NCBI RefSeq assembly: GCF_018398335.1
Contig: NZ_JAHBRX010000003.1
Span: 93,598 to 157,597 of the forward strand
Reading direction: 5' to 3'
DNA: 64,000 nucleotides
From: Chelatococcus sp. HY11
GTDB taxonomy: Bacteria > Pseudomonadota > Alphaproteobacteria > Rhizobiales > Beijerinckiaceae
Positions 10,306 through 32,567 of this stretch are shown here, piece by piece; the first letter of the stretch is position 1, and every line of letters begins with the position of its first letter. The notes under the pieces are model-generated. The model ran no database searches and had not been told where the DNA came from. It saw only the letters and a program-made list of their open reading frames with translations. The translations under genes were made by a program, and so were the position numbers.

Positions 10306-10355
10306 GAGTCTCATCTAGATTGTCGCCGCCGTCTCATCCTGATCGCCGCGCCATA

Positions 10356-11289: not shown

Positions 11290-11350
11290 CAGACGGCGTC
11301 ACGACACGAAAGTGATGAATCTGTCCGACTTTTGAGAACGCATTAAGAAC

Positions 11351-11932: not shown

Positions 11933-12091
11933 GAGGTGTGGCTTGTCCGCTTTCTCGTTGAACTCGGACAATGTCCGATTTGCCGTTGCATGACAAGGTT
12001 TACGGACCAAATCTGTGGAAGCCGCAAAACGACCGTTTGCCGAACAGGCATTTTCCATTTCGGTGCAGCGTCCGCGCTGAGAGGTGAGTGA
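11933..12091. promoter_or_regulatory. Putative res site and divergent promoter region of the Tn3-family transposon
   Basis: The 159 bp between tnpR and tnpA hold several TGTCCG/CGGACA half-sites, including the pair CGGACAATGTCCG at 11966-11978. This layout is standard for resolvase binding sites I-III in Tn3-type elements, where TnpR also represses both genes. Exact subsites were not mapped. Confidence 0.5.
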
Positions 12092-15058: not shown

Positions 15059-15112
15059 TCACTATATGTTCTCGAATGTCGGACAGATTCACCACTTTCG
15101 TGTCGTGACGCC

Positions 15113-15222
15113 TACATCGCCGACGTGCTCGCAAGGATCGTCAACGGCCATCCAAACAGCCAAATCGACGATCTCCTGCCTTGGGCCTATATCGCCGCTT
15201 CCGAGATCAAGGCCGTGGCCTG
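15113..15222 (+). pseudogene. IS66-family transposase (TnpC), C-terminal tail
   Basis: In frame from the transposon edge it reads YIADVLARIVNGHPNSQIDD then LLPWAYIAASEIKAVA and a stop, the conserved end of IS66 TnpC proteins. Everything upstream has been replaced by the Tn3-family element. It overlaps the 3' end of the ClpP-like gene on the other strand. Confidence 0.7.
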
Positions 15223-17049: not shown

Positions 17050-17313
17050 CCGGAACCGTCTATCCAATATCTTGTCCTGGAGAGGACGGACGCGGCGCAC
17101 AACATCGCCCGTTACTATGTCCTGTCTCTTGAGCCGACGCTCTTCGCCGAGATGGCCCTTGTGCGCCGATGGGGCCGGATCGGGCGAGCGGGCGGACATC
17201 GCGTGGAATTTCACGAAACGCAAGCCGGCGCGACAGAGGCCTTGCAGACATGGCTCAAGCGGAAGCTGCGGCGTTCTTATAGGCTAACCGGAGCCTCGAA
17301 GAGGCCAGCTTGA
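17050..17313 (+). CDS. WGR domain-containing protein
   Basis: An 87-residue protein made of a single WGR domain: YLVLERTDAAHNIARYYVLS, then VRRWGRIGRAGGHRVEFHE, then a C-terminal ALQTWLKRKLRRSYR helix. WGR domains occur in PARPs and in stand-alone bacterial proteins and bind nucleic acid ends or nicks in the eukaryotic enzymes; the role of the bacterial single-domain form is unknown. The start ATG at 17050 fits the domain border; an upstream ATG at 16972 would add unrelated residues. It stands alone upstream of the diverged HUH-like gene cluster. Confidence 0.75.
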   Translation, partial: PEPSIQYLVLERTDAAHNIARYYVLSLEPTLFAEMALVRRWGRIGRAGGHRVEFHETQAGATEALQTWLKRKLRRSYRLTGASKRPA

Positions 17314-17436
17314 CGCTCCCGTCCCGCTAGGCCGAAGACCGGAAAGCTGCTCAAGCCCGATCTAATCATCGGGTTCGCCCGTGCAGCACCGGGTGTTGCG
17401 GCAGCGACATCCTATTCGACACCACCAGGACCTTCT

Positions 17437-18129
17437 TCAGTCCGCCGATTCCTGCGTCCTCCGTCTCGCCCTCTCCAGGCGCTGTTTGAACGCCCCGGGC
17501 TGAATCACGAAGCAATCCTCAACCCTCGCCACCTGCCGCGCATATGAGGCTTGCTTCGCGGCATATTCCCCGAGAGGCGGTGTGTTTGAGCCGGACACGA
17601 CAGTCCGGCAATTGATCGAGCCTGTGCGCATCTTTCCGCGATGCTTGACCTCGATATAACGGGGCAGCACCGACGGCAACATGGACGCCTGATCCTTCCC
17701 GACCAACCAGAAGGACGAAATGAACAGGCGTGTGCCGTGGACCTTTCGTTTCTCGGGAAAAGGGGTGGCAAAGTCGATGAAGGCTGCCACCTTCGGCAGG
17801 CGCGAGGCTGGAACTGAATCGTTACCAAAGAGCCTGGTGCAGACCTCGCGGTAGAACGCGTTGAATGCTCTCATGCGTGAACGCGCAATCGGTTCGGTCC
17901 AGCAGATATCTTCGAATGAGATAATCACACAGAAGAGTTCCTTCTCATCTTCCGCTTGCGCAGGGCTCTCCAAAAGCCTCAGCAGATTGTCGATGCCGCA
18001 TCGGAGCAACAGATGCGCATCTGGATCGGCTTGGCCTGTGCTACGACGACGACCTCCAAGAGTTGCACGGGACGGAGGAGCGGCCGACCGCCGCACCACT
18101 GGAACCCCGCCGACGAACTCAACTGTCAT
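17437..18129 (-). CDS. Member 1 of a four-gene diverged family (HUH-like fold suspected, catalytic motif lost)
   Basis: A 230-residue protein without a family I can name. Its core aligns by eye with the genes at 18715, 20643 and 21610: FCVIISF, FYREVCTRLFGND, LPKVAAFIDF, then RLFISSFWLV in the place of the NIHIHSVWAV motif of the 21610 protein. It ends with a CFVIQPG segment and a basic tail. Both motif histidines are absent, so if the family is HUH-type this copy is catalytically dead. The ATG at 18129 is preceded by AAGGA at a 9-bp distance. Basic residues at the C-terminus suggest nucleic acid contact (inference). Confidence 0.55.
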   Translation of the reverse strand: MTVEFVGGVPVVRRSAAPPSRATLGGRRRSTGQADPDAHLLLRCGIDNLLRLLESPAQAEDEKELFCVIISFEDICWTEPIARSRMRAFNAFYREVCTRLFGNDSVPASRLPKVAAFIDFATPFPEKRKVHGTRLFISSFWLVGKDQASMLPSVLPRYIEVKHRGKMRTGSINCRTVVSGSNTPPLGEYAAKQASYARQVARVEDCFVIQPGAFKQRLERARRRTQESAD

Positions 18130-18714
18130 ATTGCAATGTCCTTCTCCTGTTCTCTGATCTAGTGGTTCTTCCCATGCGAGTCTCTCTTCTGCAGGAAGCG
18201 AGCGTTCTGACCCGCCCACTCTTCGCGTTCCTCGGCTGTAAAGATTCGGACTACACCATGATCGCTGCTATCAAGGCTGGTGACCCCCACCCATTTGTTA
18301 GCGGAAACCCCGAGTTTCTTGATCCACGTTTTCTTCATGTATCTGTGTTGTTCTGGTCTTGCGTGTTTATGAACGATCATACGTCTTCCTTTGCTGATGA
18401 TCTACAAATTTATTTAGTGCAACTTTCGTCGTTAGACGAGAACATATCGATATTATTTTTATCATCATCACTTACTATCTTTTTTTGCCGCGGGATGGAC
18501 ATAACGACCATCTCGCACTGCAAATACCAAAGGTATATTGCCTTCTTCCCACTCAGGCATTTTTTAGGGGCCCGATCGCTACCGACTTTATAGTCCCGCC
18601 ATATCCGGCCCCCTCCCCCAAGGGCGAGCGGGGCTCGTCTGTAGCAAAGGCTAGCGTCTTTTGAGAAGGTGTGCCGGCAGAAACGGCTGCTGCACAGGGA
18701 CGATACATCGCGGC
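18130..18714. other. Intergenic, AT-rich in the middle, no gene seen
   Basis: 585 bp between two members of the diverged family. The part around 18380-18530 is markedly AT-rich, with T-runs (TATTATTTTTATCATC) unlike the GC-rich surroundings. No frame shows a recognisable protein and no strong hairpin terminator was spotted. It probably holds the promoter of the 17437 gene and the 3' untranslated end of the 18715 gene. Confidence 0.4.
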
Positions 18715-19332
18715 TCAGGACAGCCGGTCTCCCATAAGATCGCCTTCCAGCGACCGGTAGAGCTGCGACCAGGCGCATTCTCCAGACATTCTGGCGGCGG
18801 CACCGGTTATATCCGCGACCTCCCGATCAACATCATCAAGGTCCAGGATGAAGGCAAACTCCGCAAGCGGGTTCTCGGACCAAAGAACGTGCCATGCCGA
18901 TGTCCTACCCCACTCGTCGTCGATCGCATCCCAATGGGAGGGTAGCCAAAAGATACCTTCCATCCTGATGCCCCACCCTTCATCCGTCCTGTCCACGATA
19001 AAAACGTCCATGACAGGTCGTGCAGCCCCAGGGGTTGCTCCTGAAGCCATGAGCCATCGCTTCACAAGCTCCAAATGAAACCACAATGCGACATTGTCGA
19101 GCAAAGCTGGACCCTCAGCCCTGACGATCGCGGCCCTTTCTCCCGGTGAATTGCAGGGACCGATAAAATAGCGCAGCTCCTGCGCGCCAACTCCAAAGAT
19201 TATCTGTTTGGTGATCGACTCCGGGTACTCTGCAGCCAGGCTGTGATATTTGCAAATCAGCCTCTCCTGCAGAGATTCTACGGATGAATGTGAGGTGTTA
19301 AAACTAATTTTCTTATTTTCATATAGCTTCAT
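18715..19332 (-). CDS. Member 2 of the four-gene diverged family (hypothetical)
   Basis: A 205-residue hypothetical protein. The central segment LELVKRWLMASG, ARPVMDVFIVD, then GIRMEGIFWLPSHWDAID lines up with the core of the 21610 protein (CRLALGK, VPRVVALID, NIHIHSVWAV), though identity is low and the histidines are replaced. The N-terminus is lysine- and asparagine-rich and low in GC. The ATG at 19332 is chosen because GGAGAAG sits 3 bp before it; a TTG at 19344 would place that sequence inside the gene. Membership in the family is the weakest of the four. Confidence 0.5.
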   Translation of the reverse strand: MKLYENKKISFNTSHSSVESLQERLICKYHSLAAEYPESITKQIIFGVGAQELRYFIGPCNSPGERAAIVRAEGPALLDNVALWFHLELVKRWLMASGATPGAARPVMDVFIVDRTDEGWGIRMEGIFWLPSHWDAIDDEWGRTSAWHVLWSENPLAEFAFILDLDDVDREVADITGAAARMSGECAWSQLYRSLEGDLMGDRLS

Positions 19333-19906
19333 TTTCTTCTCCAATGATTAAATCCAAAATTTGTGAATCGAATTATTTATTCATATACGTTTGTTTTACA
19401 AATGCATCGATGCGAATCGAGAATGGATAATTCGGGATAGTACTGTCGCAGTATGGGCTGCGTCCCTGAACGGCTATGTCATGTTAACCTCTCCCTACCC
19501 TATACATCTACGCGCGGTGATATGCCTCGCACTACATTACCAACGAAAAGCTCAATGGTCGGAAAATCGCGTATGAGCAAAAACACATATTTTATTTCCG
19601 GCAATTTCTTGGGTATTTCCGCCAACCAGATTTTATTTCCTTGATCCGGATGGACAGATTGGCTCAAATCCAGTGATCTCCGGGCAATCTTCCACGACAA
19701 TCCGCCGCACGTCTCCAAAAATAATTTTCGCTTCTCATAAGGCGGAGGATTTTCCTTGGAAATAAACCCGATTTTCCGGAAATACAGCTGCTTCTTCCGG
19801 TGCGTCACGGATTTTGACGCTGGCACGGTCCCCGATGATCGTTCTGGCAATCAAAACACGACGAGCAATTTCGCCGCGCTGAGATTTTGCCGTTAGAAAC
19901 TGCCGT
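19333..19906. other. Intergenic, no gene seen
   Basis: 574 bp, AT-rich next to the 18715 start (19333-19400) and of mixed composition after that. Short frames exist on both strands but lack ribosome binding sites and recognisable sequence. The segment 19600-19850 contains repeated TTTCCGG/CCGGAAA-like words, which may be chance. Confidence 0.35.
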
Positions 19907-20212
19907 TCAAGAAGTTATCTGCACCAAAATCGGGCCGATTTTCAGACCCCGATTCCGACGGAAAAACGACGTGTTGCACATCGTCGTCCATATCGACATT
20001 TCCAGGCGCCGCAGGAGGACAAGCCCTCCAGCACGGCGAACCTGCACACTCAATGCCTGGATCTCGCCCGAGCGGTTGCATTCTTCAGTCAGGCGATGGT
20101 AGTAGCCTTGCAGCTTCAATGAGAAGCGACGCTGGGCCTCTTGAGCCGAAGGCGGATCGGATGGGGTGCCTCGATCCGTAGAATTTGAATTTTTAACGAT
20201 TTCTGTAGCCAT
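19907..20212 (-). CDS. Small hypothetical protein
   Basis: A 101-residue protein starting MATEIVKNSNSTDRG. AGAGGA lies a few bases before the ATG, a good ribosome binding site. The middle (AQEAQRRFSLKLQGYYHRLT, then EECNRSGEIQALSVQVRRAG) is predicted to be helical and possibly coiled; no family is recognised. Same strand as the diverged HUH-like genes on either side and probably part of the same cluster. Confidence 0.45.
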   Translation of the reverse strand: MATEIVKNSNSTDRGTPSDPPSAQEAQRRFSLKLQGYYHRLTEECNRSGEIQALSVQVRRAGGLVLLRRLEMSIWTTMCNTSFFRRNRGLKIGPILVQITS

Positions 20213-20642
20213 GTTTATCCTCTTACTGCTGGCCATTGTAATAATTAAGGTATTTTCGGCGCGTGAACGCCTGTTGTTCGACCGCTTCCCACGACAAGGA
20301 GGCAGGCCCAAGCAGATGCTTGGGATAATAATCGATCGATTTCTTGCGTTCTTTGTGTATTTTTCGACATTTCTCTATTACTTTTGTCATAAAAAACTCT
20401 CTCAGTATTTTTGATATTTCCATCATCAGAGTCCCCATCGGTTTGGTTTCGGCGTGATCGCTTGGCGGTGGATTGCCAGCCCACCTCCGTCAAAAACATG
20501 TGGTGATATCTCGTCAGCTCATCTGATCCTCCTGTTTCCTTGTTCTCATCGCAGAGCCGCCCGCGACCTAAGATGGGTGAGGCCACGTCGGCAGAGCCCC
20601 AAACGGAGGCTCATCGACGATGATAATCAAGCAACGCGCCAT
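20213..20642. other. Intergenic, no gene seen
   Basis: 430 bp between the small 19907 gene and the 20643 gene. The part 20213-20440 is AT-rich (TTGTGTATTTTTCGACATTT) and probably contains the promoter of the 19907 gene. Nothing else was recognised. Confidence 0.35.
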
Positions 20643-21281
20643 TTACGGCGTGTTCGCAGCCTGCATCTGATATGTGACGGAGCGGTCCAGTTTCCTCTTG
20701 CTCTTCTTTCTGCCTTGAGACTTGGGCCGGGGGTAGATTACGCAGGTCCGTGCGAAGTCGCATGTCGTGCGCGTGTGGTACAGGTCTTCCAGGATTGACT
20801 GAGCCACGTCTGCAATGGCGTTATCGGCGATGGGAGACACCTCGACTTGGCGAATTCCCCGTCTCCTACAGCCCACAGATCCGGCTAATTTATTCACGAT
20901 GCGGGAAAATCGATCGACATACCCCGCACTCACGACCCACAACGAGCGGATGTGGACATGCTGGGCACCGACATCTCTTCTGGCGAGCCAATCGGACCTG
21001 CCAGCGTCGATCACAAAGCATGCCCGAGGCCTCATATGATCAAGGGCGACAGACGACTTTCGGCCCAGAATCGCCCTGCATACGCGATCGAAAAATGCCC
21101 CTCCGGCATCCATACGAGCGACGGACGCATCCCCGGAGCGTGGCCCTCCTTCAAAGAAGATCCTGACCTCAACGAATCGGCTGTCTTTATGGGATCCGGC
21201 ATCGAAATGCGGGCCGGCGAAGAACTCTATAATATCATCTTGCGACTGATACTTATCAGAAAATTTTGTTACTGTATCCAT
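20643..21281 (-). CDS. Member 3 of the four-gene diverged family (HUH-like, motif shifted)
   Basis: A 212-residue protein. Visible blocks shared with the 21610 protein: RFVEVRIFF, FFDRVCRAILGRK, MRPRACFVIDAG, QHVHIRSLWVV and a final CVIYPRPK followed by a lysine/arginine-rich tail. The HxH-like motif reads HVHIR where the 21610 protein has NIHIH, so only one histidine is aligned, although an H-V-H triad exists two residues earlier. AGAGG lies 7 bp upstream of the ATG. No tyrosine-lysine motif equivalent to YARK is obvious. Function unknown; HUH-type ancestry is inferred. Confidence 0.55.
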   Translation of the reverse strand: MDTVTKFSDKYQSQDDIIEFFAGPHFDAGSHKDSRFVEVRIFFEGGPRSGDASVARMDAGGAFFDRVCRAILGRKSSVALDHMRPRACFVIDAGRSDWLARRDVGAQHVHIRSLWVVSAGYVDRFSRIVNKLAGSVGCRRRGIRQVEVSPIADNAIADVAQSILEDLYHTRTTCDFARTCVIYPRPKSQGRKKSKRKLDRSVTYQMQAANTP

Positions 21282-21609
21282 TAATAACCTCTAATATGCA
21301 ATTATACATCGCGCCTTCCAATATTGTCAAGCCCAATTGAACTGAAATACAAATAATCGGAATTCTTTCTGAAATATGCCTCCAACAACACTCTATGGCC
21401 GATCCGCCCGAGCCCCTAGCTGATTGGCCTATACTAACTCACGAACAACCTTATTATGCTTCTTGATTCGGCATTCGGCAAATTGTAAATTGATATATTA
21501 TTGTTGTTTTCTATCACTAACCTAGTCGATCGAGGAAGAATGACATCTATCGGAAGTAAATGCCCGTTCTATACCTACGAATTGCCTTCTACCATCCGAT
21601 GCAACCGCC
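21282..21609. other. Intergenic, AT-rich
   Basis: 328 bp with low GC (AATTATACATCGCG, AATTGTAAATTGATATATTA). It lies upstream of the 20643 gene and presumably holds its promoter. No gene or strong hairpin recognised. Confidence 0.35.
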
Positions 21610-22356
21610 TTAATCAGGGTGTCTGTTCTCGGCAGATGCTACGGTCCAGATTGTATGATGGCGACGCCTCCCCCTCGGATAGACCTCGAAGTCCTGCTCA
21701 TAGCCAGGCGATTCGTTGTTATAGAAGCCAAGCTTCCTCGCGTAGGCTATGACCTTATAGAGTTCTTTTCTTTCAACAGACCGGATGTCGATGGTCTCAA
21801 CACCTCTTTCAAGGCAGTATCTGCATCTCGCAGCCTCGGGTATGTGCTTCTCAATGAGCGCCCGTTGGTCATCCCTCACTGCCCATACAGAGTGAATGTG
21901 AATGTTCACGGGAGATACCAGACGATCGGCATATCTTGATCCCTCAGCATCAATCAAGGCCACAACCCTGGGAACAGCTTCAGATTGGCGATGGTGGTTC
22001 TTGCCTAAAGCCAATCGGCAAGTTTGGTTGTAGAGAACGCCAAATGTGTTCAGACGGTTGCGCGACAGATCTTTTACAAGGTTACGGACTGAGAACGTCA
22101 CTGTCACAAAAAGGAAGCATGCGGCTGTCTCGTCTCCGTATGAAGCTGTGAGAAGATCCACAAAATGCGCGGTGAGAGCCTCATGACAGGCAAGAGATGG
22201 GTGGCGCTGTCGGAGATGTGTGATCCGTGATTTTTGTTTGCTAGGCTTGGAAAAGGATTGAAAGACGACGCCAGGGACGACCTTAGTTCCAACGTTAGCT
22301 TGTGTTAGTGATTCACATGAATCTATAATTGATTTGTCCATAAATAAATTCTCCAT
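21610..22356 (-). CDS. Member 4 of the diverged family; putative HUH-type (rolling-circle Rep-like) protein
   Basis: A 248-residue protein with the three-motif order of HUH endonucleases. The strand motif FLFVTVTF is near residue 84, NIHIHSVW with H153 and H155 (HUH) follows, and then comes KVIAYARKLGF with Y205 and K208 (YxxK). The segment VPRVVALIDAEGSRYADR precedes the HUH motif. Three related genes lie downstream on the same strand. HUH proteins nick single-stranded DNA for rolling-circle replication, conjugation or transposition; that role here is inference from motifs only. Starts at 22356 and at 22341 both have acceptable ribosome binding sites; an open extension to 22434 uses TTG. Confidence 0.6.
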   Translation of the reverse strand: MENLFMDKSIIDSCESLTQANVGTKVVPGVVFQSFSKPSKQKSRITHLRQRHPSLACHEALTAHFVDLLTASYGDETAACFLFVTVTFSVRNLVKDLSRNRLNTFGVLYNQTCRLALGKNHHRQSEAVPRVVALIDAEGSRYADRLVSPVNIHIHSVWAVRDDQRALIEKHIPEAARCRYCLERGVETIDIRSVERKELYKVIAYARKLGFYNNESPGYEQDFEVYPRGRRRHHTIWTVASAENRHPD

Positions 22357-22591
22357 CTTCAAATATTTTTCGTTGTCAAAATGACATAGGTATAAATCCG
22401 CCTGTTCGACGTTTTGCCGAACATGCGTGGACAAGGATGAGGTTTATGGATCCAGATCGGAGGCTTGCCGTCGCGATGAATACCAATAACTTTATATTTA
22501 CGGCGCTCGGCTGATGTTGCTGAGCTCAGTATCGAATTTTTTCAAAATTTCTTTAGCGGGACCATTTTGACCCCATGAACAAGAATAGTCA

Positions 22592-23047
22592 TCATCCGCG
22601 GATGATGATCTCAATTGCATTCTCTGGCACACCAAGGGAAGCCGCCAACAGCTCCTTGGCTTGTCCTATAGTCAGGCAACCCGGCCCCGGAACAATCGTA
22701 AGAGACCCCGTCGGCAATGGGCCTGGGTTAACCGCCCCGCCTTTCTCCTGCCCAATCCTTGCCATCCCCCCAATCTTGCTCAGATCGCCGTGCCCGATGA
22801 ACCGAGAGTGATGGCCACGACGGCCGAGCATAAGGCGCCCATATCCCAGCTGGTCGAGAATCCGAAAGCACCTGAACACTTCGGCTTGGAGCAGCCCCGC
22901 TCCCGCCGTCGCCTGGTCGACAGAGATTTCTCGTTCCTTTTTCCCAAGGCCGGCCAACCAATCGATTATACTGCGGAACGCCAGATCGTTGTCATAATGG
23001 GCCTGGATTTCCTCGTTCATTATTGTCTCTGCCGATGCACCCTGCAT
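22592..23047 (-). CDS. Hypothetical protein with a possible winged-helix segment
   Basis: A 151-residue protein. The segment EISVDQATAGAGLLQAEVFR, then CFRILDQLGYGRLMLGRRG resembles a winged helix-turn-helix with a wing, so DNA binding is possible. The C-terminal half is glycine/proline-rich and then predicted helical (IGQAKELLAASLGVPENAIE). The ATG at 23047 follows GGGAGAAGGGT, a strong ribosome binding site; an ATG at 23074 is less well placed. Located between the HUH-like gene and the resolvase on the same strand. No family recognised. Confidence 0.5.
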   Translation of the reverse strand: MQGASAETIMNEEIQAHYDNDLAFRSIIDWLAGLGKKEREISVDQATAGAGLLQAEVFRCFRILDQLGYGRLMLGRRGHHSRFIGHGDLSKIGGMARIGQEKGGAVNPGPLPTGSLTIVPGPGCLTIGQAKELLAASLGVPENAIEIIIRG

Positions 23048-23328
23048 ACCCTTCTCCCTGTAGGCAGAATACATAATCTAGGCATTGTTAGATGTCAATA
23101 GCTAGGTAATACTCTAAAGTTCTTTTTTAGAATCTGCTTAGGCGATTGATATAACCTTCCAGCTAAGATGGCGTTGTGCTAATTTCGTGGCGGATAAGGG
23201 TGCGTCGCCGATCTCGCCTCAGCCAATTCTGGCGACCAGGACAACGCCTGAAAATACCACAGCTCGGCGCACCACTCGCAAGCCAGCGAATGGCGAGCGA
23301 CAGGCCGACCACCCATATTGGCTGGGCC

Positions 23329-23907
23329 TCACGAGGCCTGATCTCGCACCCGCATGAGGGTCTGCCGGCTGACCCCATATTTCCGCGCAGCCCCCGAAAT
23401 GCTCATGCCTGCGTTCAGATCCGAACGAGCCGCTTCTCTCTGTTGCGAGGTCAGAAGCGATGGCCGGCCGAGGGTCTTGCCCTGTAATCTCGCGCGCTTG
23501 AGACCCGATTGGGTTCGCTCAATCAGAAGGTCGCGTTCGAATTGCGCCACGGCATTGAGAACATTCATGGTCATGGTCCCCGCGGAGCTTGTCAGATCGA
23601 CACCCCCCAACGCCAGGCAATGGACCTTCACCCCCATAGCGCTCAACTTCGAGACCGTAGAACTGACATCGATGGCATCACGTCCCAGCCGGTCCAGTTT
23701 CGTGACGATCAACACGTCCCCCTTCTCCATCCGATCAAGGAGCCGGCTGAAGCCATCCCGTCTTGCAATAGCGACACTTCCTGAGACGGTCTCAGCAATG
23801 ACCCGGTGGGCTTCTATTCGAAAACCAGCCGCTTCGATCTCGCGAATCTGGTTCTCCGTCGTCTGTCCTGTCGTTGAAACGCGTGCGTAGGCAAAAATCC
23901 GTGTCAT
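23329..23907 (-). CDS. Serine recombinase of the resolvase/invertase family
   Basis: A 192-residue small serine recombinase: catalytic serine in IFAYARVSTTGQT, the KLDRLGRDAIDVSSTVSKL and AQFERDLLIERTQSGLKRAR motifs, and a C-terminal helix-turn-helix (SISGAARKYGVSRQTLMRV). Enzymes of this size resolve cointegrates or plasmid dimers, or invert DNA. A res-like set of TGTCC/GGACA half-sites lies just upstream (23908-24020), which favours resolvase. No Tn3-type transposase is linked to it, so it may serve multimer resolution of the neighbouring replicative element. Confidence 0.88.
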   Translation of the reverse strand: MTRIFAYARVSTTGQTTENQIREIEAAGFRIEAHRVIAETVSGSVAIARRDGFSRLLDRMEKGDVLIVTKLDRLGRDAIDVSSTVSKLSAMGVKVHCLALGGVDLTSSAGTMTMNVLNAVAQFERDLLIERTQSGLKRARLQGKTLGRPSLLTSQQREAARSDLNAGMSISGAARKYGVSRQTLMRVRDQAS

Positions 23908-24020
23908 GAATGTCCTTATAGGCTGTCCGAAATATGCAGCCTGTCCATTAACCGGTCAAGCTACTTTATGGACATTCATGGAAGCCATGTCCAAAACCCT
24001 TCCTTTTCGGACAGGGCTAT
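23908..24020. promoter_or_regulatory. Putative res site of the 23329 resolvase
   Basis: At least six TGTCC or GGACA half-sites lie in ~110 bp: AATGTCC, GCTGTCCG, CCTGTCC, ATGGACAT, CCATGTCC and CGGACAGGG. They are arranged as several inverted pairs. This is the usual composition of subsites for serine resolvases and probably also autoregulates the gene. Subsite borders and crossover point are not resolved. Confidence 0.55.
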
Positions 24021-24064
24021 TCTCATGCAATTGGTAACAGTTGAAGTTTTTTAAATGAGGATGG

Positions 24065-24092
24065 ATTGAACCGCTGATTGAAGCGGTTCAAT
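24065..24092. repeat. Perfect 11-bp inverted repeat (hairpin)
   Basis: ATTGAACCGCT (24065-24075), a 6-base loop GATTGA, and AGCGGTTCAAT (24082-24092). There is no T-run after either arm, so it is not a simple rho-independent terminator. It sits between the res-like array and the left copy of the 50-bp repeat, outside any gene. Confidence 0.7.
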
Positions 24093-24251
24093 GCCTGCGG
24101 CAATTAAAATTATCCGAGAATGAGTAGTCACCTCAGGTGACATGAAAAAATTTGGGTTTGGACGATGAATTTTCTCGATAATTTGGATTGGCGTTGGTAC
24201 CTTAATCCATGTAACATAAAGAATATTACCAGATAAATCCTTATTATCCTT

Positions 24252-24301
24252 CTCCCGTACAATATATTGCCACAGACACCCATACCGATATTCTACGGGA
24301 G
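24252..24301 (+). repeat. Left copy of a ~50-bp direct repeat flanking the PolB block
   Basis: Starts CTCCCGTACAATATATTGCC and matches 29210-29257 with about five differences. Within it CCCGTACAATA pairs with TATTCTACGGG (one mismatch) to form a long hairpin with a ~24-base loop. The right copy pairs perfectly. It could be an attachment site, a replication-origin hairpin or a recombinase target; which one cannot be told from sequence alone. Confidence 0.8.
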
Positions 24302-24401
24302 ATTACTCCGACCTAACGATAACGATAAAAATTACCTCTTGTAGCATTTGCCCGTCCAGCATTGAAGCTGACAAATCAATGGGATATCTGATCGTCACCC
24401 G

Positions 24402-25622
24402 TCAGTCCCATAAACTCGATAGCGGTGTCGCGATAAGCTTCTCCCCAAAGGAAATCACGTCTGTGCCGTCGTAGAGCAAGGCTCCGACCGCGAAGCGGTC
24501 ACCGCATGCGTTGGCCAGTGCGCGCAACCCCCCGAAATCGCCCGGTTTCACAGTTGCGCTCGCCTTGACTTCAATGCCCACGATCATCCCGTCGTCTCTC
24601 TCCAGCACGATGTCCACCTCTCGTCCTTCCCTATCACGAAAATGATAGGGCGCCAGCCTCAGGTCGCTCGAGGTCATCAGCTTCAGAATCTCTGAGAAAA
24701 CGAAGGTCTCTAACAGCGCTCCGAAAAGCATCCGATCTGCCCTCACCCGATCAAAGGTCAATCCCCGGGTGCTCGCCAGCAGCCCGGAATCCAGGAAGTG
24801 CACCTTGGGTGTCTTCACGATTCGCTTCAGCGCGTTCGTGTACCAGGGTTGCAACATCGCAACCAGGAACACCTGTTCGAGCAGGCCAACATAGCGTTGT
24901 CCCGTCTTGTGGCTGACATTGATGCTGCCGCCGAGCTGCGAGTAATTGACCAACTGCCCAGAATGCTCCGCCAGCAACCGGACGAACCGTGGCAGTTCGG
25001 TCAGTTTTTCCACATCGGCGATGTCCCGCAGATCGCGGGTCAGGATCGAGGTCAGATAGGATCGTAACCAGGCTTGCCGACGACGCTCACTCGCACGACT
25101 GATAACTTCGGGAAAGCCACCACGCAGGACGAGTTGCACCAGGTCCTCGCCCACGACGGTATCGGATGGCCTTTGCGACCGGCCCGCAAAAAGCCGATCG
25201 AGAAACTCTGGCTTCCGACCTACGATCTCCGCTCTGGCCAGCGGCAACATCTGGATGGTTTCCACTCGCCCCGCCAAGCTGTCGGCCACCCTCGGCAGGG
25301 TCAATACGTTCGCCGAGCCGGTAAGAAGGAACCGTCCTGGTCGGTAGTCCTCGTCGACCGACCTCTTGATCGCCAGCAGCAGATCGGGGGCACGCTGAAC
25401 TTCGTCGATGATCACCTGATCCAATCCCCTGATGAATCCCACAGGGTCAGATTGGGCGGCTTCAAGTGCAGTTTGATCATCGAGGGTGATATATGTTCGA
25501 TTGGCATCACCCATCTCTCGCACCAAGGTGGTCTTGCCGGCCCGGCGCGGCCCCACAATTAAGACAACTGGTGTATCCGCCAAAGCCTCCTCGGCCCGAC
25601 GTTTTACAATTCGCTCAAACAT
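24402..25622 (-). CDS. ATP-binding protein with C-terminal DUF4143 (AAA_14-DUF4143)
   Basis: A 406-residue protein. Walker A is GPRRAGKTTLVREMG near residue 26 and Walker B is LDQVIIDEVQRAPDLL near residue 80. The C-terminal DUF4143 region ends in a PD-(D/E)XK-like strand pattern (REVDIVLERDDGMIVGIEVK). The family is widespread, often horizontally moved, and its function is poorly defined. The ATG at 25622 is preceded by GGCAGGGA; an upstream in-frame start at 25670 is less likely. It is transcribed away from the polymerase gene and lies inside the 50-bp repeats. Confidence 0.85.
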   Translation of the reverse strand: MFERIVKRRAEEALADTPVVLIVGPRRAGKTTLVREMGDANRTYITLDDQTALEAAQSDPVGFIRGLDQVIIDEVQRAPDLLLAIKRSVDEDYRPGRFLLTGSANVLTLPRVADSLAGRVETIQMLPLARAEIVGRKPEFLDRLFAGRSQRPSDTVVGEDLVQLVLRGGFPEVISRASERRRQAWLRSYLTSILTRDLRDIADVEKLTELPRFVRLLAEHSGQLVNYSQLGGSINVSHKTGQRYVGLLEQVFLVAMLQPWYTNALKRIVKTPKVHFLDSGLLASTRGLTFDRVRADRMLFGALLETFVFSEILKLMTSSDLRLAPYHFRDREGREVDIVLERDDGMIVGIEVKASATVKPGDFGGLRALANACGDRFAVGALLYDGTDVISFGEKLIATPLSSLWD

Positions 25623-25928
25623 GCCATTCCCTGCCAATCCTCGGCAGATTGGAATTATCATGTCCGCCAATTGGAAGTCAACGATCCGCCTATTGGAACA
25701 TCAAATCCCGCCGGATCGCAGGATCAAGGATGACATGGGTCAGCAAAGCCGAGAACAATGACGCCGCTGGCTCCTGCGCAAGCACATATCCTACTCAAAT
25801 CCAGCGCAAGCGCGAAGGCTTGGCCTCTAAGCATCTCAATTCCAATGTGGTCGCTTAAGCCAGGATCCCGCCGCTCGAGGGCTCAGTAGAATGAAGCCTA
25901 AGATGCCTCGTTGAGACGACGCCTACCG

Positions 25929-26192
25929 CTACGGAGTCTTGGAACGACGGTCTTGTCTGCGAGAAAAGTGAGCCAGCATCGCGCACAACCGGCGCAGGTC
26001 CATTTGGCGGATATTATGTCGGACTTTAGCCTGCGCAAGAAGTTGCCGTGCGTGTATTGCCGCCTCTCCGCTTCTCTCGAGACTCTCAATAAAGGCCTCG
26101 TGGAGCAAAAGGCGCCTCTCACCCTTCTGCACCTGCCTCTGAGCCTCGCAGAGATGGCATTCAAGGGCACGAATTATGAGAATCTGTAACAT
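25929..26192 (-). CDS. Small helical protein, paralogue of the 47753 gene
   Basis: An 87-residue, charged, mostly helical protein. It shares a layout with the 82-residue product at 47753: EAQRQVQKGERRLL versus LAERHIRDGEHRLA, ARQLLAQA versus LRALLDHE, and RQMDLRRLCAMLAHFSRRQ versus RTMDRGQLIAMLAWFEKSA. Function unknown. Located between the DUF4143 gene and the polymerase gene, transcribed with the former. The GGAGG is almost in contact with the ATG, so the true start may be elsewhere. Confidence 0.5.
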   Translation of the reverse strand: MLQILIIRALECHLCEAQRQVQKGERRLLLHEAFIESLERSGEAAIHARQLLAQAKVRHNIRQMDLRRLCAMLAHFSRRQDRRSKTP

Positions 26193-26367
26193 CCTCCGTT
26201 ACCTCTCATCGAAAGATGGCATAGTTTGGGTAACCGGTTCAGGCTTGCCTGTGGCTTACCACAGCTGCACGATCGAGCGGCTTCCCTGCGTCTGATGGCA
26301 ATGGCACTTGCCGACAAGGAACCCAAGCTCCATCTTGGCCATATGAAGGCTTTGGGGGCCGGAGCAG

Positions 26368-29055
26368 ATGGGCAACGGGCTGGAAACGAATACGACGGTC
26401 ACGTTCAGGATCACACCTGAAGGTGCCAGACATTCCGTGGTAGTCGCGACAGAGCGGATCACAGAGCGTGAACAAGGGACAAGGCCGAGGCGCGGGCTCC
26501 CTCCCCCGCCCAAACAATATCTTCTGATTGGATTCGACGCCGAATACGTCCCGCCCGCACCGCCACACTCTGGCGACGACACGGGGCCAAGCGAACCCCT
26601 AAGCAACGACATTCTTTCGTACCAATTTTCCGTAAGAAAGGTCGTCGAGGGAGAAGAGCCGGGCTCTCCTATCGTGGGGATCGTCCTTCCCGACGACGGC
26701 GGACGCGTTGCTCTCGCTCCGTTTCTTGCCTTTGCGATTGGAACCTGGCTCGAGAGGTTTCCCGGCGAGACCGCGCCTTCGACCATCTACCTCGTGGGGC
26801 ATTTCACGAGGGAGAGCATTTCGGCCTTTGCGGATTTTAGGGATTTTCAGAGAAGCCTCAGCATCATCCACAATACGTTTGTAACGTTGAACCGGACTCT
26901 TGCTATCAAGCTCACCCCATTAGATGCGCGGCAGGTCTCCTTGACCATCAACCTGCGGGATGTCCGCCTTCTGGCGCCGGAAGATCATTCTACCCTTGAT
27001 CAGATAGCCCATATCCTTGATCTGCCAAGGGCAGAGGCGACATACAGAGGGCCGCTGCCTTCGCATTCCCACCTGAAGGACCTGATCGCCCAGGATTGGC
27101 CCCGCTATCAAGCCTGGGCTGTTCAGAACGCCAACATCTGTGCCGCTTATGCCGAAAGGCTGCTAACTCGAAGTAGCACACTGGCGGGCAAGTTCACGCT
27201 GCCTGTCACCTTGACTTCCATCGGTCAGCAAATGGTTCTTGATCGTTGGAAGACGGCGCGTTTCCAACCGCTTGAACCGCTTGGCAAGGAGGAAATCCAG
27301 GAGACCAGGTTCGACAGGAGATCGGCAAGGTTCGTCACCAAAAAGACGAACGTGTACATTGACCGGGTTCATTGGGAGGTCGACTTCGTCACTGATTCCT
27401 ATCACGGGGGGCGCAACGAGCAGTTCATGTTCGGACCAGCGCCTGAAGGAGAATGGCGGGATTTCGATCTAGCCTCGGCCTACACCACTGCGATGTCCTT
27501 GATCTGCCTGCCCCAGTGGCATGATCTCCAGCCTCTCACCAATCTTGAAGACGTCAAGCCAACCGATCTCGCCTTTGCCTGCGTCGCGTTCGAATTCCCG
27601 GAGACTGTGCGTTTTCCTTCCCTGCCGGTGAGAACCGAAAACGGGCTCATCTTCCCGCGCAAGGGACGCTCCGTCTGCTCGGCCCCCGAAATTGCCCTTG
27701 CGCGAGAGCTTCAGGCGGAGCTCACCCTGATCAAGGGGGTAACGGTCCCAGTGGATCTGGAAAAGCCCCTGTTCAAGGGCTTCATCACCGACTGCCTCGA
27801 ACACCGAAATGCCTTTGAAAAGGGGTCCCTGGACAACCTCTTCTGGAAAGAGCTTGGCAACAGCACCTATGGCAAACTTGCACAGGGGCTGAGGAAGAAG
27901 CGCGTGTACGATTCCCGTTCAAACAAGATGGAGTTCATCCCCGAGGCGAAGATCACGCAGCCTTTTTATGCCTCCTTCATCACCTCTTACACCCGGGCCG
28001 TGATCGGGGAGATTCTCAACCGGCTGCCCCAAGAGGTAGCCGTCTTCAGCGTGACAACCGATGGGTTTCTGTGCACAGCCTCCCTCGAGGATATGTCCAT
28101 GGCGCTCTCAGGTCCCTTGGCCGGATCATTCATGCAAGCCAGGCGAGATCTGGTTGGGAATGATGATGCCCTTGAAGTCAAACATATTATCCGGCAGCCA
28201 ATCGGATGGAGAACGCGGGGCTCAGCCACCTTGAAACCCGGACACGAGCCAGAAGATATTGTACTCCAGAAGGGCGGCATCAAAGCGCCTGAGCGGTATG
28301 GCAAGCTCGAGCAGAACCGTTACATGGTTGATCTGTTTCTGAACAGAACGGCCGATCAAACGATAACGCAAAGCACGAACATTACGATCCGTCAGATGAT
28401 CGCCGAGAATGTTGATTTTGGCATGGAGTACAGTGAGAGACGCCTCGCGATGGAGTTCGACTGGAAGCGCGTTCCCACCAACCATCGTGACGAGACTATC
28501 GAGTTCGAAGGAACACCTTTCAATCATCTTGCATTTGATTCCATACCACTTCAATCCAAGGAGCAATTTGAAGAACTTAGGTCTCTCTGGGCAGCATACA
28601 CCAAGAATGATCCCAAAATACTGAAGACGGAAGCCGATTGCTCCCGGTTTATGGACTACGTGGATGCGAAGCGTAACAATGGCCGCTATGCCTTCACAGA
28701 GGATGGGGATCTCAAAAGAATCAAGCTCGAACTATGCGCGGCCCTTGTCCGGCGGGACGGCAGTTTCGCGGAAATCAGAACGAGATCCACATATACGCAC
28801 AAGGAATTTGCCAGAATCCTCACTAATTTTGGAATTCCCTGCAAAGATAGCGATGTTGAAAATGCAGCCAGGAACAAGAAAAAAGGAAGGCTGATGGCTT
28901 ATGGTCAATCCGGAGATTCAGAACGTGTCAAAGGGGTATTGATCAAGCTGAAAAACGAATGTTTTCCGGATCTGGATATTGCTTTATTTCTCAAAGGGGA
29001 TATTGGCAATATTTCTCACAACGAAAACACGGCTTCTGATAATGGGATGGTCTGA
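26368..29055 (+). CDS. Family-B DNA polymerase (DNA_pol_B_2, protein-primed/pipolin-like)
   Basis: An 895-residue polymerase. Exo I is FDAEY (D57, E59), with an Exo II-like GHFTRESISAFADF near residue 145. The Exo III position reads YQAWAVQNANI, with Asn where Asp is usual. The YHGGR segment near 345 resembles the Y-GG/A linker motif. Motif A is DFDLASAY (365-372), motif B KELGNSTYGK (494-503), and motif C VTTDGF (D565), with Thr in place of the first Asp of DTD. There is no large insertion between motifs A and B and no terminal-protein gene nearby. Such polymerases replicate phages, linear plasmids and pipolins; a self-replicating element is the inferred context. The ATG follows GGAGCAG. Confidence 0.85.
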   Translation: MGNGLETNTTVTFRITPEGARHSVVVATERITEREQGTRPRRGLPPPPKQYLLIGFDAEYVPPAPPHSGDDTGPSEPLSNDILSYQFSVRKVVEGEEPGSPIVGIVLPDDGGRVALAPFLAFAIGTWLERFPGETAPSTIYLVGHFTRESISAFADFRDFQRSLSIIHNTFVTLNRTLAIKLTPLDARQVSLTINLRDVRLLAPEDHSTLDQIAHILDLPRAEATYRGPLPSHSHLKDLIAQDWPRYQAWAVQNANICAAYAERLLTRSSTLAGKFTLPVTLTSIGQQMVLDRWKTARFQPLEPLGKEEIQETRFDRRSARFVTKKTNVYIDRVHWEVDFVTDSYHGGRNEQFMFGPAPEGEWRDFDLASAYTTAMSLICLPQWHDLQPLTNLEDVKPTDLAFACVAFEFPETVRFPSLPVRTENGLIFPRKGRSVCSAPEIALARELQAELTLIKGVTVPVDLEKPLFKGFITDCLEHRNAFEKGSLDNLFWKELGNSTYGKLAQGLRKKRVYDSRSNKMEFIPEAKITQPFYASFITSYTRAVIGEILNRLPQEVAVFSVTTDGFLCTASLEDMSMALSGPLAGSFMQARRDLVGNDDALEVKHIIRQPIGWRTRGSATLKPGHEPEDIVLQKGGIKAPERYGKLEQNRYMVDLFLNRTADQTITQSTNITIRQMIAENVDFGMEYSERRLAMEFDWKRVPTNHRDETIEFEGTPFNHLAFDSIPLQSKEQFEELRSLWAAYTKNDPKILKTEADCSRFMDYVDAKRNNGRYAFTEDGDLKRIKLELCAALVRRDGSFAEIRTRSTYTHKEFARILTNFGIPCKDSDVENAARNKKKGRLMAYGQSGDSERVKGVLIKLKNECFPDLDIALFLKGDIGNISHNENTASDNGMV

Positions 29056-29209
29056 TAGAGTCTGGTATCTTTTTTTGTACCCCCATCATAATCGATAATT
29101 GACCTTGCAATGCACATCAGAAAGGGGAGCGATCAGAACGAAGAAAAAAAGTATCTAGTAAGGCTTGTTAGGATCATATGTATAGCATAACAATATACGC
29201 CCCCTCACT

Positions 29210-29257
29210 CTCCCGTACAATATATTGCCAAAGACACCCATACGGCTATTGTACGGG
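29210..29257 (+). repeat. Right copy of the ~50-bp direct repeat flanking the PolB block
   Basis: CTCCCGTACAATATATTGCC followed by AAGACACCCATAC, in the same orientation as 24252-24301. CCCGTACAATA (29212-29222) and TATTGTACGGG (29247-29257) are perfectly complementary, giving an 11-bp stem and a 24-base loop. It lies 155 bp after the polymerase stop. No T-run follows, so it is unlikely to be a terminator. Confidence 0.8.
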
Positions 29258-29267
29258 TAGTGTGTCT

Positions 29268-29447
29268 ATGAATACATTTTTCACCGGGTTATCTTCCACC
29301 TTTGCCGGTCGTTACCAAAAGGAAGGAAAAAAGTTCCACCATTGTTGCTGGGGTCCTGGTGATTGCAACCGGCAAGGCAGAGTTGTTGAAGGGGAACGGT
29401 ATGATCTTAGCGGTCACTGCCGAGAATGCCCATTTGCCCAAAGCCAA
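29268..29447 (+). other. Possible truncated cysteine-rich gene
   Basis: From the ATG at 29268 the frame reads MNTFFTGLSSTFAGRYQKEG, then HHCCWGPGDC and later SGHCRECPFAQ, a spacing that suggests a zinc-binding site. Beyond about 29447 the frame is antisense to the 29449 gene, so the original 3' end is missing. It begins 11 bp after the right 50-bp repeat. Coding status is uncertain. Confidence 0.25.
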
Positions 29448-29448
29448 C

Positions 29449-29754
29449 CTAGTGGCTCAGTGACCGCCTTGCACTATCAATCAGTCTGGATTGAGTTTCG
29501 AAATCGTCGATCTGCCGTCGCAGACTGGCCAATAGCGGTCGTACGTCGTCGTCTCCGCAATCGAACGGATCTATGTCGCGCAGTCGAGCCTCGACGCGAG
29601 CGATCTGAACCGCTGCGCTATCCTTGAGGCTCCACAGTTCGGCAAGCCGCATCGCGACATTTGGATCGCCGACATAGGCGACAAGCCTCAAGCCCATCTC
29701 AAGCTCGATTTCGATATTGGCGCCTTCAGCACGCACGAGCGGAAAATCCCCCAT
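29449..29754 (-). CDS. Small hypothetical protein, paralogue of the 36188 gene
   Basis: A 101-residue protein. It is clearly related to the 98-residue product at 36188: MGDFPLVRAEGANIEIELEM versus MGDYPNVRANGAQIEIELER, then AYVGDPNVA versus AYVGDSNVA, and ELWSLKDSAAVQIARVE versus ELWSVKDSLAVRIALLE. The first half looks beta-rich and the second half helical. Function unknown. A GGGGG run precedes both ATGs, and both genes share a promoter-like sequence ~85 bp upstream, so they are probably expressed in the same way. Confidence 0.65.
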   Translation of the reverse strand: MGDFPLVRAEGANIEIELEMGLRLVAYVGDPNVAMRLAELWSLKDSAAVQIARVEARLRDIDPFDCGDDDVRPLLASLRRQIDDFETQSRLIDSARRSLSH

Positions 29755-29839
29755 AACCCCTCCCCCATTTCACGAAGCGACGCACATCGTGCGTGTCTGC
29801 CCTCCAGGTTAACAGGACCCGTTCCTACCAGAATGTTCA

Positions 29840-29870
29840 GGTTCTAGCGAACGTTAACTATTTTGGCAAA
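29840..29870 (-). promoter_or_regulatory. Conserved promoter upstream of the 29449 gene
   Basis: Read on the minus strand, TTGCCA and TAGAAC are separated by 17 bases, a sigma-70-like arrangement. The segment is nearly identical to 36567-36596, at almost the same distance (83-86 bp) from the start of the paralogous gene. The sequence between the paralogues' promoters and genes is less conserved. Confidence 0.55.
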
Positions 29871-30214
29871 TGTGAGAATAGGTTTGCTGGGAAGCTTTTC
29901 CAAGAGCGAGGGAACAGGCCATTTGAAAACTGTCGCATTCTGCGCTCCGGAAACTCGCGATTAGAACCTGGAGTAATGCCGGCCTCGTCAGCCCCACCCT
30001 TGTGCCCAACTGGCGGGGCTGCCCAGTCCCTCTCGCAGACTCTAAGCACAAGGGGTTTCGCCACTCCCAAGCTGAAGATCCGGCGGATCTCTGAGCCACA
30101 TCTTGTTGAGCGATGCGAGGACATGAAAAACCATACAATTGGCAGCCTTTTTGAGAAAGGTTGATCGATTTTGGCTGTCGTGATTTACGCTTTTGATGTA
30201 GACTCGAAAGGGTC
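29871..30214. other. Intergenic, no gene seen
   Basis: 344 bp upstream of the IS5 remnant. Short frames on both strands have no ribosome binding site or recognisable sequence. The right end near 30150 (AGAAAGGTTGATCGATTTTG) may be the terminal inverted repeat of the IS5 element. Confidence 0.35.
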
Positions 30215-30697
30215 GTGGTCGGATGGCCGACATTCAGCAAGAAGCTGAGGCGCTACCCGACTGATCTGACCGACGAGGAATGGTCGTTGATTGAACCGTT
30301 CATGCCGCCTGCCGCGCCGCGTGGACGGCCGCGAAGGATCGATCTACGCGAGGTGGTGAACGCGCTTCGCTATCTGGTGCGTACAGGCTGCGGATGGGAG
30401 ATGCTTCCGAACGATTTTCCGCCATGGCAGACGGTGTATTGGTGGTTTCGCGCCCTCATGCGCCGCTTGCTGTTCAGCACCATCCACGACATGGCGCTGA
30501 TGCTTGATCGTGAACGTGCCGGTCGCCATGCTAGCCCTTCGGCGGCGGTAATCGACAGCCAGTCGGTCAAGGCCCCCGCTGCAAAAAGCCATGGTTTTGA
30601 CGCCAACAAGAAGATCGTCGGCCGCAAACGTGACATCGCCGTGGACACGGATGATCGAGTGCAGGACGCCAAATCCGGCGGAATCGGTCCACCATAG
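30215..30697 (+). pseudogene. IS5-family transposase (IS1031-like), 3'-truncated
   Basis: N-terminal region DLTDEEWSLIEPFMPP and GCGWEMLPNDFPPWQTVYWW are typical of the IS5/IS1031 OrfA product, and AAVIDSQSVKAP holds the first catalytic aspartate. The frame is lost after DIAVDTDDR (about residue 150), so the second aspartate and the glutamate are missing. The trailing residues come from foreign DNA. Not functional. Confidence 0.8.
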
Positions 30698-30961
30698 AGC
30701 TCGGCGCGACCTCCATAGCCGGCCGAGGGTCAAGTTCAGAGAGAAGTGATCTAATCAGCACCAACCTCAATGGCGGGGTGGCGCACTTCCACCCGCGAGC
30801 CATTGTAGAAACATCCGATGGGCCCCCTCGCAGCCTAATTGCTTTCGCAAGTGACGCGTTGCTTATGTGCTCCGACCGGCGGCGGCGGCAGCTTTGGTGA
30901 AGCGATCGTCCGTGTCCACTGTGGTGGCTTGCCAACCCGTGGCGGTCTCAGTTGGCACTTC

Positions 30962-31168
30962 TCAACGCGAAACCGCTTCAAATCGAAAGCGTCCACGTTG
31001 CCTTCTCACGCGAACAGCTTCGATTATCTTGCCGGAGTTAGGATCCACAACACGCCATTCGTCAGGCGCTGTCTGCTCCAAGGTCACCTTGAGGCTAGGG
31101 TAGTAAAAATTTATACCTTGGAGAAGCGCATCGAGCGTCGGCGCAGATGCCAGAAGTTCTGTCATCAC
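30962..31168 (-). CDS. Small hypothetical protein
   Basis: A 68-residue frame (MMTELLASAPTLDALLQGIN, then YYPSLKVTLEQTAPDEWRVV, and a basic RVRRQRGRFRFE tail). The composition looks coding and the arrangement suggests a small alpha/beta fold, but no family is recognised and no good ribosome binding site is visible. Isolated between IS remnants. Confidence 0.35.
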   Translation of the reverse strand: MMTELLASAPTLDALLQGINFYYPSLKVTLEQTAPDEWRVVDPNSGKIIEAVRVRRQRGRFRFEAVSR

Positions 31169-32567
31169 GGATCGTATCTCGCAGTCGCATTGTTTGCGGC
31201 AAAAAAAAATCAGTCAAAAATTTCAGAAGTATGTCGACTGACGTAACTTGGAACTGTTCATATCGGCACGATGTCCCGGTTTCGCCCCCGAACGCGGATC
31301 AATGTGGCGGGCCATGATTTTGTTCGTTCTTACGTACCCGGCTCGCGAGACCAGGCCTTTCCGCCTGCGAAAGTCGATAACTATGACCAGGAATTTTGCT
31401 TGCCTGCGCCAAGGGACGCCCTGGTGCGCTGTGGTTTCGCAAAGAAAAAGGGCTGGCTTTCCAATGAGAGCCAGCCTAAGTCAAAATGCTTGACCGAAGT
31501 CGAAACATTCCAGAGGGGAACGGCCAAAAACAAACCCCACGCCGGGAGGGCGCGGAGCCCAACATCTTCAGCCATCGGCTGATATGACGCCTGCATCGTC
31601 ATTGTGCAACGCAGCATGAATCATGGCAGCTCTGCGCGATACGCAATGCACCTTATACAGCATCAAGTTACCTGTCTCATTTGCCTCTCTCTTGAGGCAA
31701 GCCTTAGTTTTCCACGGGTGTCCTAGTGGATGTGATGTTTAAACGTCAGTGGACCGCCAGGCTTTCCCCCACGGCGAGTTTGAGTATCGATCAACCGTCG
31801 ACATGAAGCCCGAAGATCAGCTTCCTCTCGAGTTATGTGCAGGGCTTCGGTTTCCTCAAGGCCTTCGAACCCGGTCCACGCAGGCGTCAGCGATCTGACG
31901 TCAATCGCTCCGAGAAAGGGATTCTCGGCCAACCTTTTGGGCATTGGCAATAAACTGTGCGATGTCCTCGCGAACCGCGGTGCGATAGGCCTGTTTAGGA
32001 TCATCTCGCATACTCGTCCCCATGGCGCGCCGGGTTGGAAAGCGAGGAACAACTTTCTCGAAGATGGTGGCGCGGTCGTGACAATCTTGCACCGGATCAA
32101 GGCAAAAGCGGCGCTCTATGGGATTGACGCCCCCTGCGAGCGTGCAAGCAATGTTGTCTGAAGCGCGCAGGACACTTCACAGGATATGGATTTTGGTCTT
32201 GAGTCCGTCCGTGATCGACCATGACAACGATCTGCATCCGTTTTTGCCGTCATTGGGTAGCACCGGCCTGATCATGCGTCATTCAAAGTCGGTTGGGTTC
32301 ATCTCAGCTTATTTTGAGCCTGAACCAGATTGAAAGCCGGGTGTCTGGAAACGCCCCCTGTTCGCCGCTCGTCCATCATTTTGGGGCGTGTCCGCAAACG
32401 GTCTTTGGCGGTGTGCTGCGACCCGTGACGAAACCGCAAGATCGGTCGAGCGCTTAATGGCTGCGGGCGCCTTGTGTGGCCACGGATGCAGCTGGTGCTG
32501 GACCACAGAGACCGGCATCTCGATGACGATCTGGACTTGGACGCATTGAGCAGCGGCATCGCTGAAC
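31169..32567. other. Gene-poor stretch, possible decayed gene at 31730-32090
   Basis: 1.4 kb with no intact gene recognised. On the minus strand two overlapping frames look partly coding and could be one frameshifted gene: RDDPKQAYRTAVREDIAQFI at about 31950-32010, then in another frame NPFLGAIDVRSLTPAWTGFE and ALHITREEADLRASCRRLID to about 31730. The rest (31250-31700 and 32100-32560) shows nothing recognisable. Confidence 0.3.

Follow-up and report, generated by a model that had tools for sequence, protein, structure and literature searches.

Direct repeats beside a piPolB-type polymerase gene of Chelatococcus form fixed-loop hairpins, candidate start sites for the polymerase of a plasmid-type pipolin

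The closest described systems to the locus reported here are pipolins, whose family B DNA polymerase is of the primer-independent (piPolB) type. Passages of PMC9710591 describe plasmidic pipolins, for which S. epidermidis and L. fermentum are named, as harbouring relaxases and resolvases and as having often lost the integrase, and they call the biological role of piPolB still unclear. Integrative pipolins are represented in print by those of E. coli (PMC7385651); for these, excision is given as negligible or undetectable by Illumina sequencing, and the word hairpin does not occur in that paper.

We analysed a window, meaning the whole stretch of DNA under study, which comprises the final 64 kb of contig C3 (157,597 bases) of a Chelatococcus genome (label G000). 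The carrier is a repABC-type replicon, with the plasmid backbone genes at 55049-58928 on the minus strand (RepC 55049-56524, RepB 56698-57732 and a ParA-like ATPase 57714-58928). An initial sequence-only reading had placed a family B DNA polymerase, an AAA_14-DUF4143 ATPase and a small ORF between two direct repeats of about 50 bp, and these genes were confirmed: polB (26368-29055, plus strand, 895 aa), the ATPase (24402-25670, minus strand; Pfam E 1e-25 and 7e-45) and p87, an 87-aa ORF (25929-26192, minus strand) without a family match in Pfam or PHROG and identical in amino acids in G001, which is C. asaccharovorans DSM 6462, of the same genus as the window. The ATPase is probably element-specific cargo, because tblastn gave no match to it in the stretches fetched around polB of five relatives, nor in the fetched stretch of C5, the second contig of G000. 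Further genes of element type lie left of the left repeat. A small serine recombinase of the resolvase/invertase type (23329-23907, minus strand, 192 aa; Pfam Resolvase E 1e-35, PHROG 125 DNA invertase E 1e-54), absent from the initial reading, lies 344 bp left of that repeat and adjoins a putative res region (23908-24018), so assigned from its TGTCC/GGACA dyads. The C-terminal motif of p160 (22592-23074, minus strand) is common to a protein of the polB element of genome G470 (22/41 identical, E 4e-9). p274 (21610-22434, minus strand) is HUH-endonuclease-like by its motifs VTVTF, HIHSVW and YARK; it had no Pfam match, the database search returned its own cluster only and its structure model reached a pLDDT of 34.5, while a relative of p274 is present on L015, the UViG contig of IMG/VR that also carries polB (E 5e-16). 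Two divergent paralogues of p274 are encoded on the same strand, p260 (17437-18219), which lacks HxH, and p212 (20643-21281).

The polB ORF matched Pfam DNA_pol_B_2 weakly and below the cut-off (E 0.017) and matched DNA polymerases of PHROG at E 1e-8 and 1e-6. It carries the motifs PolA DxxSAYTTAM, PolB KxxxNSxYG and PolC TTDG as well as RTRG, and [KR]TRG is a mark of piPolBs. Out of 7,996 candidates scored, 549 proteins matched the polymerase at E<=0.001; among the best 120 of these 549, the nearest match outside its own 90% cluster was 47% identical, and Rhizobium, Mesorhizobium, Paenochrobactrum and Brucella intermedia were among the named matches. C. asaccharovorans DSM 6462 is the closest relative with a name, its polymerase being 95% identical. 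No polymerase came up when the PDB was searched by sequence; the AlphaFold2 model was good (mean pLDDT 83), and the nearest solved fold to it was that of the protein-primed phi29 DNA polymerase (Foldseek E 2e-14). We built a tree of 31 rows, 28 of them on the piPolB side and three being pPolBs (phi29, PRD1 and the archaeal virus LCBv1). The window polymerase grouped with the 27 other piPolB-side rows, including those of pSE-12228-03 and pLME300, which we take to be the S. epidermidis and L. fermentum plasmids meant as plasmidic pipolins, and phi29, PRD1 and LCBv1 stood apart (support 97/99, with several long branches among the distant rows). On the piPolB side it falls inside a fully supported clade of 14 rows. 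Motif C contains TDG in 28/28 piPolB-side rows, with TTDG in the window polymerase as in S. epidermidis and S. warneri, whereas all three pPolB rows have DTDS there; [KR]TR is present in 27/28 piPolB-side rows, and tblastn matched the pSE-12228-03 polymerase at E 2e-24. The 895-aa protein groups with the piPolBs and not with the phage protein-primed polymerases, which bears out the suggestion that it is a polymerase of mobile elements, and primer-independent synthesis is predicted for it. Among the 31 aligned polymerases, only the two from Chelatococcus have the ExoIII aspartate (residue 254) replaced by N, and their ExoII aspartate (residue 150) is replaced by S (G933 has E there); since both aspartates are replaced, proofreading has probably been lost. 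Against G001, dN/dS was 0.16 for polB and 0.16 for the ATPase, and both genes are under purifying selection. A class-wide search found the polymerase in 2/385 genomes, namely the window's own and the distant G933, and the family of genome G256 had it in 3/136, with 0/14, 0/87 and 0/28 in three other families thought richer in polB. The polB of G470 (9480-12116 of its stretch L025) has an in-frame TAG near the 3' end.

The sequence-only reading had held that the element was unlike known pipolins, a view that we abandoned, as the resolvase together with the missing integrase fits the plasmidic pipolins of the passages in PMC9710591. Because a serine resolvase is present and a tyrosine integrase was not found, as reported for plasmidic pipolins, the reading that suits the locus best is a plasmid-type pipolin with a large plasmid as its carrier. 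The absence of a tyrosine integrase, already remarked in the sequence-only reading, was upheld for the 36 distinct window ORFs scanned, a subset of the window's ORFs, none of which matched Pfam Phage_integrase, and by tblastn with the integrases found near polB in three relatives, which had no match in the window at E<=0.01. In the integrase's stead a small serine recombinase lies nearby in the Chelatococcus element as well as in G015 and G491, and likewise in the piPolB plasmids of Staphylococcus and Fusobacterium. The plasmidic pipolins that we compared, pSE-12228-03, p3GD01 (S. warneri), pLME300 and pKCOM1250 (F. nucleatum), have a piPolB-type polymerase and, among the annotated features seen, no tyrosine integrase, like the window. 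A recombinase-family protein is annotated in three of the four plasmid records (the fetched stretch of pLME300 is without one). They have an annotated relaxase gene, where the window instead has the HUH-like p274. Moreover, they are whole plasmids of 7.8-19.4 kb, whereas the window element is no separate circular plasmid and sits inside a contig with repABC genes, on a large replicon whose backbone is partly present in G001 too. Three of the plasmid polymerases were 25-27% identical to that of the window over the matched part, and pLME300 was found only via the S. warneri polymerase. The UViG L015, G256 and G470 look like integrative pipolins: their polymerases are 42-43% identical to that of the window, and near polB each has a tyrosine integrase (56-58% identical among themselves), divergent to polB and directly beside it in the UViG and G256 and 4.5 kb off in G470. 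This integrase was not found by tblastn in the Chelatococcus stretches. Nor does the window show the att-like terminal direct repeats of integrative pipolins, which often lie at a tRNA: its own direct repeats are hairpins of a kind present once per genome in G256 and G470, and no tRNA was found in the window.

The direct repeats themselves are real and far beyond chance by self-BLAST and shuffles, being 49 nt long and 92% identical (self-BLAST E 7.7e-14). The 11-mer CCCGTACAATA, allowing one mismatch at most, occurs four times in the window, always within the repeats and twice per repeat on opposite strands; shuffles gave an expectation of 0.40, and 0/100 reached four. Each repeat is also an inverted repeat, with arms of 11-15 nt and a middle of 22-24 nt, and forms a hairpin of 43-44 nt with the loop motif CCCATA(C/T). 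The left copy (24251-24302, plus strand; repeat match 24251-24299) has the stem CCCGTACAATAT / ATATTCTACGGG, a loop with ACACCCATAC and a DNA fold z of -4.3, and the right copy (29209-29257, plus strand, z -4.6) lies in the orientation of polB, 158 bp 3' of its stop. In the window the two copies differ at four bases, and each is one base from its counterpart in G001, with no sign of recent exchange between left and right.

We found the same hairpin beside polB in other elements. The pattern CCGTA-N18/19-CCCATAY-N8-TACGG lies 3' of polB in the window, C5 and G001, in the UViG L015, and in G256 and G470. Its arms read CCGTACAATAT...CTATTGTACGG in the window, CCGTAAATGTT...AACATTTACGG in the UViG, CCGTAAATGTT...AACTTTTACGG in G256 and CCGTAAGAGTT...AACACTTACGG in G470, and the loops CACCCATA(C/T) or CACTCCCATAT. 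In the window, the UViG, G256 and G470 the first copy stands at -5 to 158 bp from the polB stop in the orientation of polB; in G470 it overlaps the stop codon that ends the polB frame after the in-frame TAG. In the UViG a degenerate second copy accompanies the first, without polB between them, and in both the window and the UViG the duplicated unit is exactly the hairpin, flanks excluded. In G015 (stretch L011), whose polymerase is 36-38% identical, two hairpins lie beside polB on its 5' side in opposite orientations, with a stem TCAATCAAAG/CTTTGATTGA unrelated to the others (imperfect in the second copy) and the loop ACCCATACGG; these were found after the pattern had been fixed, through a covariance model of the four relatives' copies, and their matches were weak (E 0.2 and 1.3). 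Together with the window this gives an evidence base of five independent elements, the polymerases of the four relatives being 36-43% identical to that of the window and the G015 copies lying 5', not 3', of polB. Position and strand of the hairpin vary, from 3' of polB to 2 kb upstream and to the 5' side in both orientations. The folds are modest in G470 (z -1.6) and the first G015 copy (-1.8), and the second UViG copy hardly folds (-0.55).

Beyond these elements, no such hairpin was found at the polB of G491, G933, L053, F. nucleatum, S. epidermidis and L. fermentum, six loci of which G933 and L053 had short flanks. S. warneri and Pseudosulfitobacter had off-geometry matches only (gap 5), situated in the N-terminal part of polB and left out of the count. 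The hairpin is therefore not general to piPolBs, and the plasmidic pipolins compared above differ from the window in having no hairpin of the set geometry with a CCCATAY loop. Directly 3' of its polB, G491 has a strong hairpin of another kind (8295-8332 of its stretch L026), with a perfect 13-bp stem and a loop without CCCATAY.

Where the hairpin does occur it is tied to the polymerase, and repeats widespread without a polymerase, which would have spoken against the initial reading, did not turn up in the 397 genomes of the order or in IMG/VR. Among the 397 genomes the exact pattern occurred in G000 (three matches) and G256 (one) and in no other, and the polymerase search on the same genomes returned the same two. 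As the pattern was drawn from G000, G256, G470 and the UViG, their matches arise by construction, and the information of this search lies in the 395 empty genomes and in the zero matches of the reversed-pattern control; the 54 polB-less genomes with no match are all within the 397 and form no separate control. Whole-genome searches gave one match each in G256 and G470. In all of IMG/VR the exact pattern matched a single contig, L015, the one found with a close relative of the polymerase; L053, an IMG/VR contig with a distant polB (27%), had no match, no hairpin with the Chelatococcus arm sequence was found in IMG/VR, and a search of plasmids with the right repeat and its flanks returned none. 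We further scanned 25 loci (394 kb) at fixed geometry (a gap of 1-2, a loop of 19-22 and no fewer than 10 of 12 pairs). CCCATA[CT] gave nine matches, each of them at polB or at what remains of it (2 kb away in the case of the left copies in the window and G001), and of the other 59 letter orders 57 gave none, CCATAC three (the same hairpins, shifted) and ATCCCA one. The stem is complementary in 54/60 cells over the five independent hairpins, 9/12 positions have changed on both sides, and 4/120 arm permutations, the true one included, were equally good; these counts rest on hand-set arms, the MAFFT alignment having placed a gap inside the stem, and an alignment that took in reverse-strand matches was set aside. 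Covariation among the four relatives' copies alone was not above shuffles. The model built from those copies found the left copy of the window at E 0.017 and the copies of G001 and C5 at 0.4-2, and left the right copy of the window unreported at E<=10. As far as the open PMC papers searched show, the polymerase-linked hairpin is new, the element being a further member of a known group.

G001 is collinear with the window across the whole of 16753-29306, at 96% identity, and some of the backbone has a match there as well. Synonymous divergence from G001 was 0.018 for p274, 0.136 for polB and 0.41 for p160, and because it differs so strongly between genes the region looks like a mosaic. Between the neighbouring p274 and p160 it is more than 20-fold apart, and the dN/dS of p274 is about 1. 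Contig C5 matched 16753-24018 at 99.9% and then jumped to 28703-29870 at 81%. The left hairpin, the ATPase, p87 and the greater part of polB are absent from it; what it keeps is the right hairpin and a remainder of polB containing two stops. Six of the roughly seven differences in the near-identical C3/C5 block fall at 23939-24018, in the 110 bp upstream of the resolvase. The C3/C5 breakpoints are not the hairpins, and we infer an exchange between the two contigs at the resolvase site. The last 2,250 bases of C3 (61751-64000) are identical to the start of C5, and a gene for a protein with a Mu-type transposase domain (61639-63321) extends into them; they could be a repeat at which the assembly broke, or else connect the two contigs.

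The reading that we put forward, tentatively and at somewhat less than an even chance, is that the locus is a plasmid-type pipolin whose direct repeats are a fixed-loop hairpin serving as a folded single-strand DNA start site, origin-like, for its piPolB. Since the loop is fixed and the stem drifts yet stays complementary, recognition in a single-stranded, folded form is suggested, and since the polymerase is the constant partner of the hairpin, it may be an initiation or origin-like site for that enzyme. The hairpin would fold from single-stranded DNA of the element and be bound by piPolB, perhaps together with an HUH nickase in those elements that have one, and this binding would start replication of the element; the one recombination trace seen, the exchange with C5, would have been made by the serine resolvase and not by the repeats. 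A bolder version, which we hold more guardedly, sees in this single-strand DNA hairpin the first site in cis to be linked with a family B polymerase that needs no primer: the ACCCATA(C/T) loop would serve primer-free initiation as template or docking site, the stem would be free to drift, and the hairpin would be the origin still missing from pipolins. The fixed-loop hairpin offers a concrete candidate site for primer-free initiation, so that how pipolins replicate is at stake, and a signature by which alphaproteobacterial members of this polymerase clade can be recognised in sequence.

The nearest rival, possible if on the unlikely side, is that a recombinase or HUH nuclease of the element, and not the polymerase, uses the hairpin, which would then be a site of recombination or nicking in folded single-strand form. 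Folded single-strand DNA sites are known in integron attC, IS200/IS605 ends and rolling-circle origins, where the hairpin is kept while the stem drifts, as in the window; in attC in particular the structure is kept and the stem sequence is free. The elements with HUH-like ORFs were precisely the three that have two hairpin copies (window 21610-22434; UViG L015 4580-5182; G015 stretch L011 696-1175, with Pfam REP_ORF2-G2P at E 4e-11), and the duplication in the window and the UViG covers the hairpin without its flanks, as a nick or recombination site might. This match of HUH genes and copy number involves five elements, however, and counts a degenerate second copy for the UViG. In G256 and G470, where the hairpin is present once, scans of the stretches by motif or tblastn found no HUH-like ORF (best E 0.10), and the one constant partner remains polB, whereas attC is tied to the integron integrase and IS200/IS605 ends to the TnpA transposase.

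It is rather doubtful that the hairpin is instead an RNA element in the polB transcript, regulating polB or bound by the polymerase, as T4/RB69-type polymerases bind a hairpin in their own mRNA. Four of the five independent elements do have a copy that is oriented like polB and no more than 158 bp 3' of its stop, but in the window the left copy is 2 kb upstream of polB, on the far side of the divergent ATPase gene, in G015 both copies lie 5' of polB with one per orientation, and Rfam gave no match at the hairpins (window 15000-32000; elsewhere one sub-threshold match, ar15, E 2.2). The presence of copies on both sides of polB and in both orientations speaks for a role as DNA over one as RNA. 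That the hairpin is a palindrome bound in double-stranded form by a dimeric regulator would accord with the dyad symmetry of the arms, but is highly improbable, as the arms change between elements and the asymmetric loop is constant, the reverse of what a dimer site would lead one to expect. Least probable of all is the sequence-only proposal that the repeats are attachment sites bounding an excisable 5-kb unit: two direct copies do flank the ATPase, p87 and polB in the window and G001, but the integrase-bearing G256 and G470 have a single copy genome-wide, so that the hairpin is no attL/attR pair there, both UViG copies lie on one side of polB and the two inverted G015 copies 5' of it, the diverged window copies have not been homogenised, element-type genes (the resolvase, p160 and the HUH-like p274) lie outside the repeats, and the relatives' integrase was not found in the window.

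As for the ends of the element, position 16753 was considered as the left one and rejected: C5 and G001 share about 200 bp further left, and 16753 is only the point at which the window diverges. Inspection by eye found no clean ends or target duplication, the same-genus G002 and G003 gave short matches only and no empty site, and shared 13-14-mers revealed no att pair in G256, G470 or the UViG. Half a tRNA gene may mark an end of the G470 element, with a single matching 11-mer there. In G015 a 125-bp direct repeat is present at 7570-7694 and 8276-8400 of L011, one copy of it overlapping tRNA-Ala (8363-8438), and this repeat is a possible attachment site of the G015 element.
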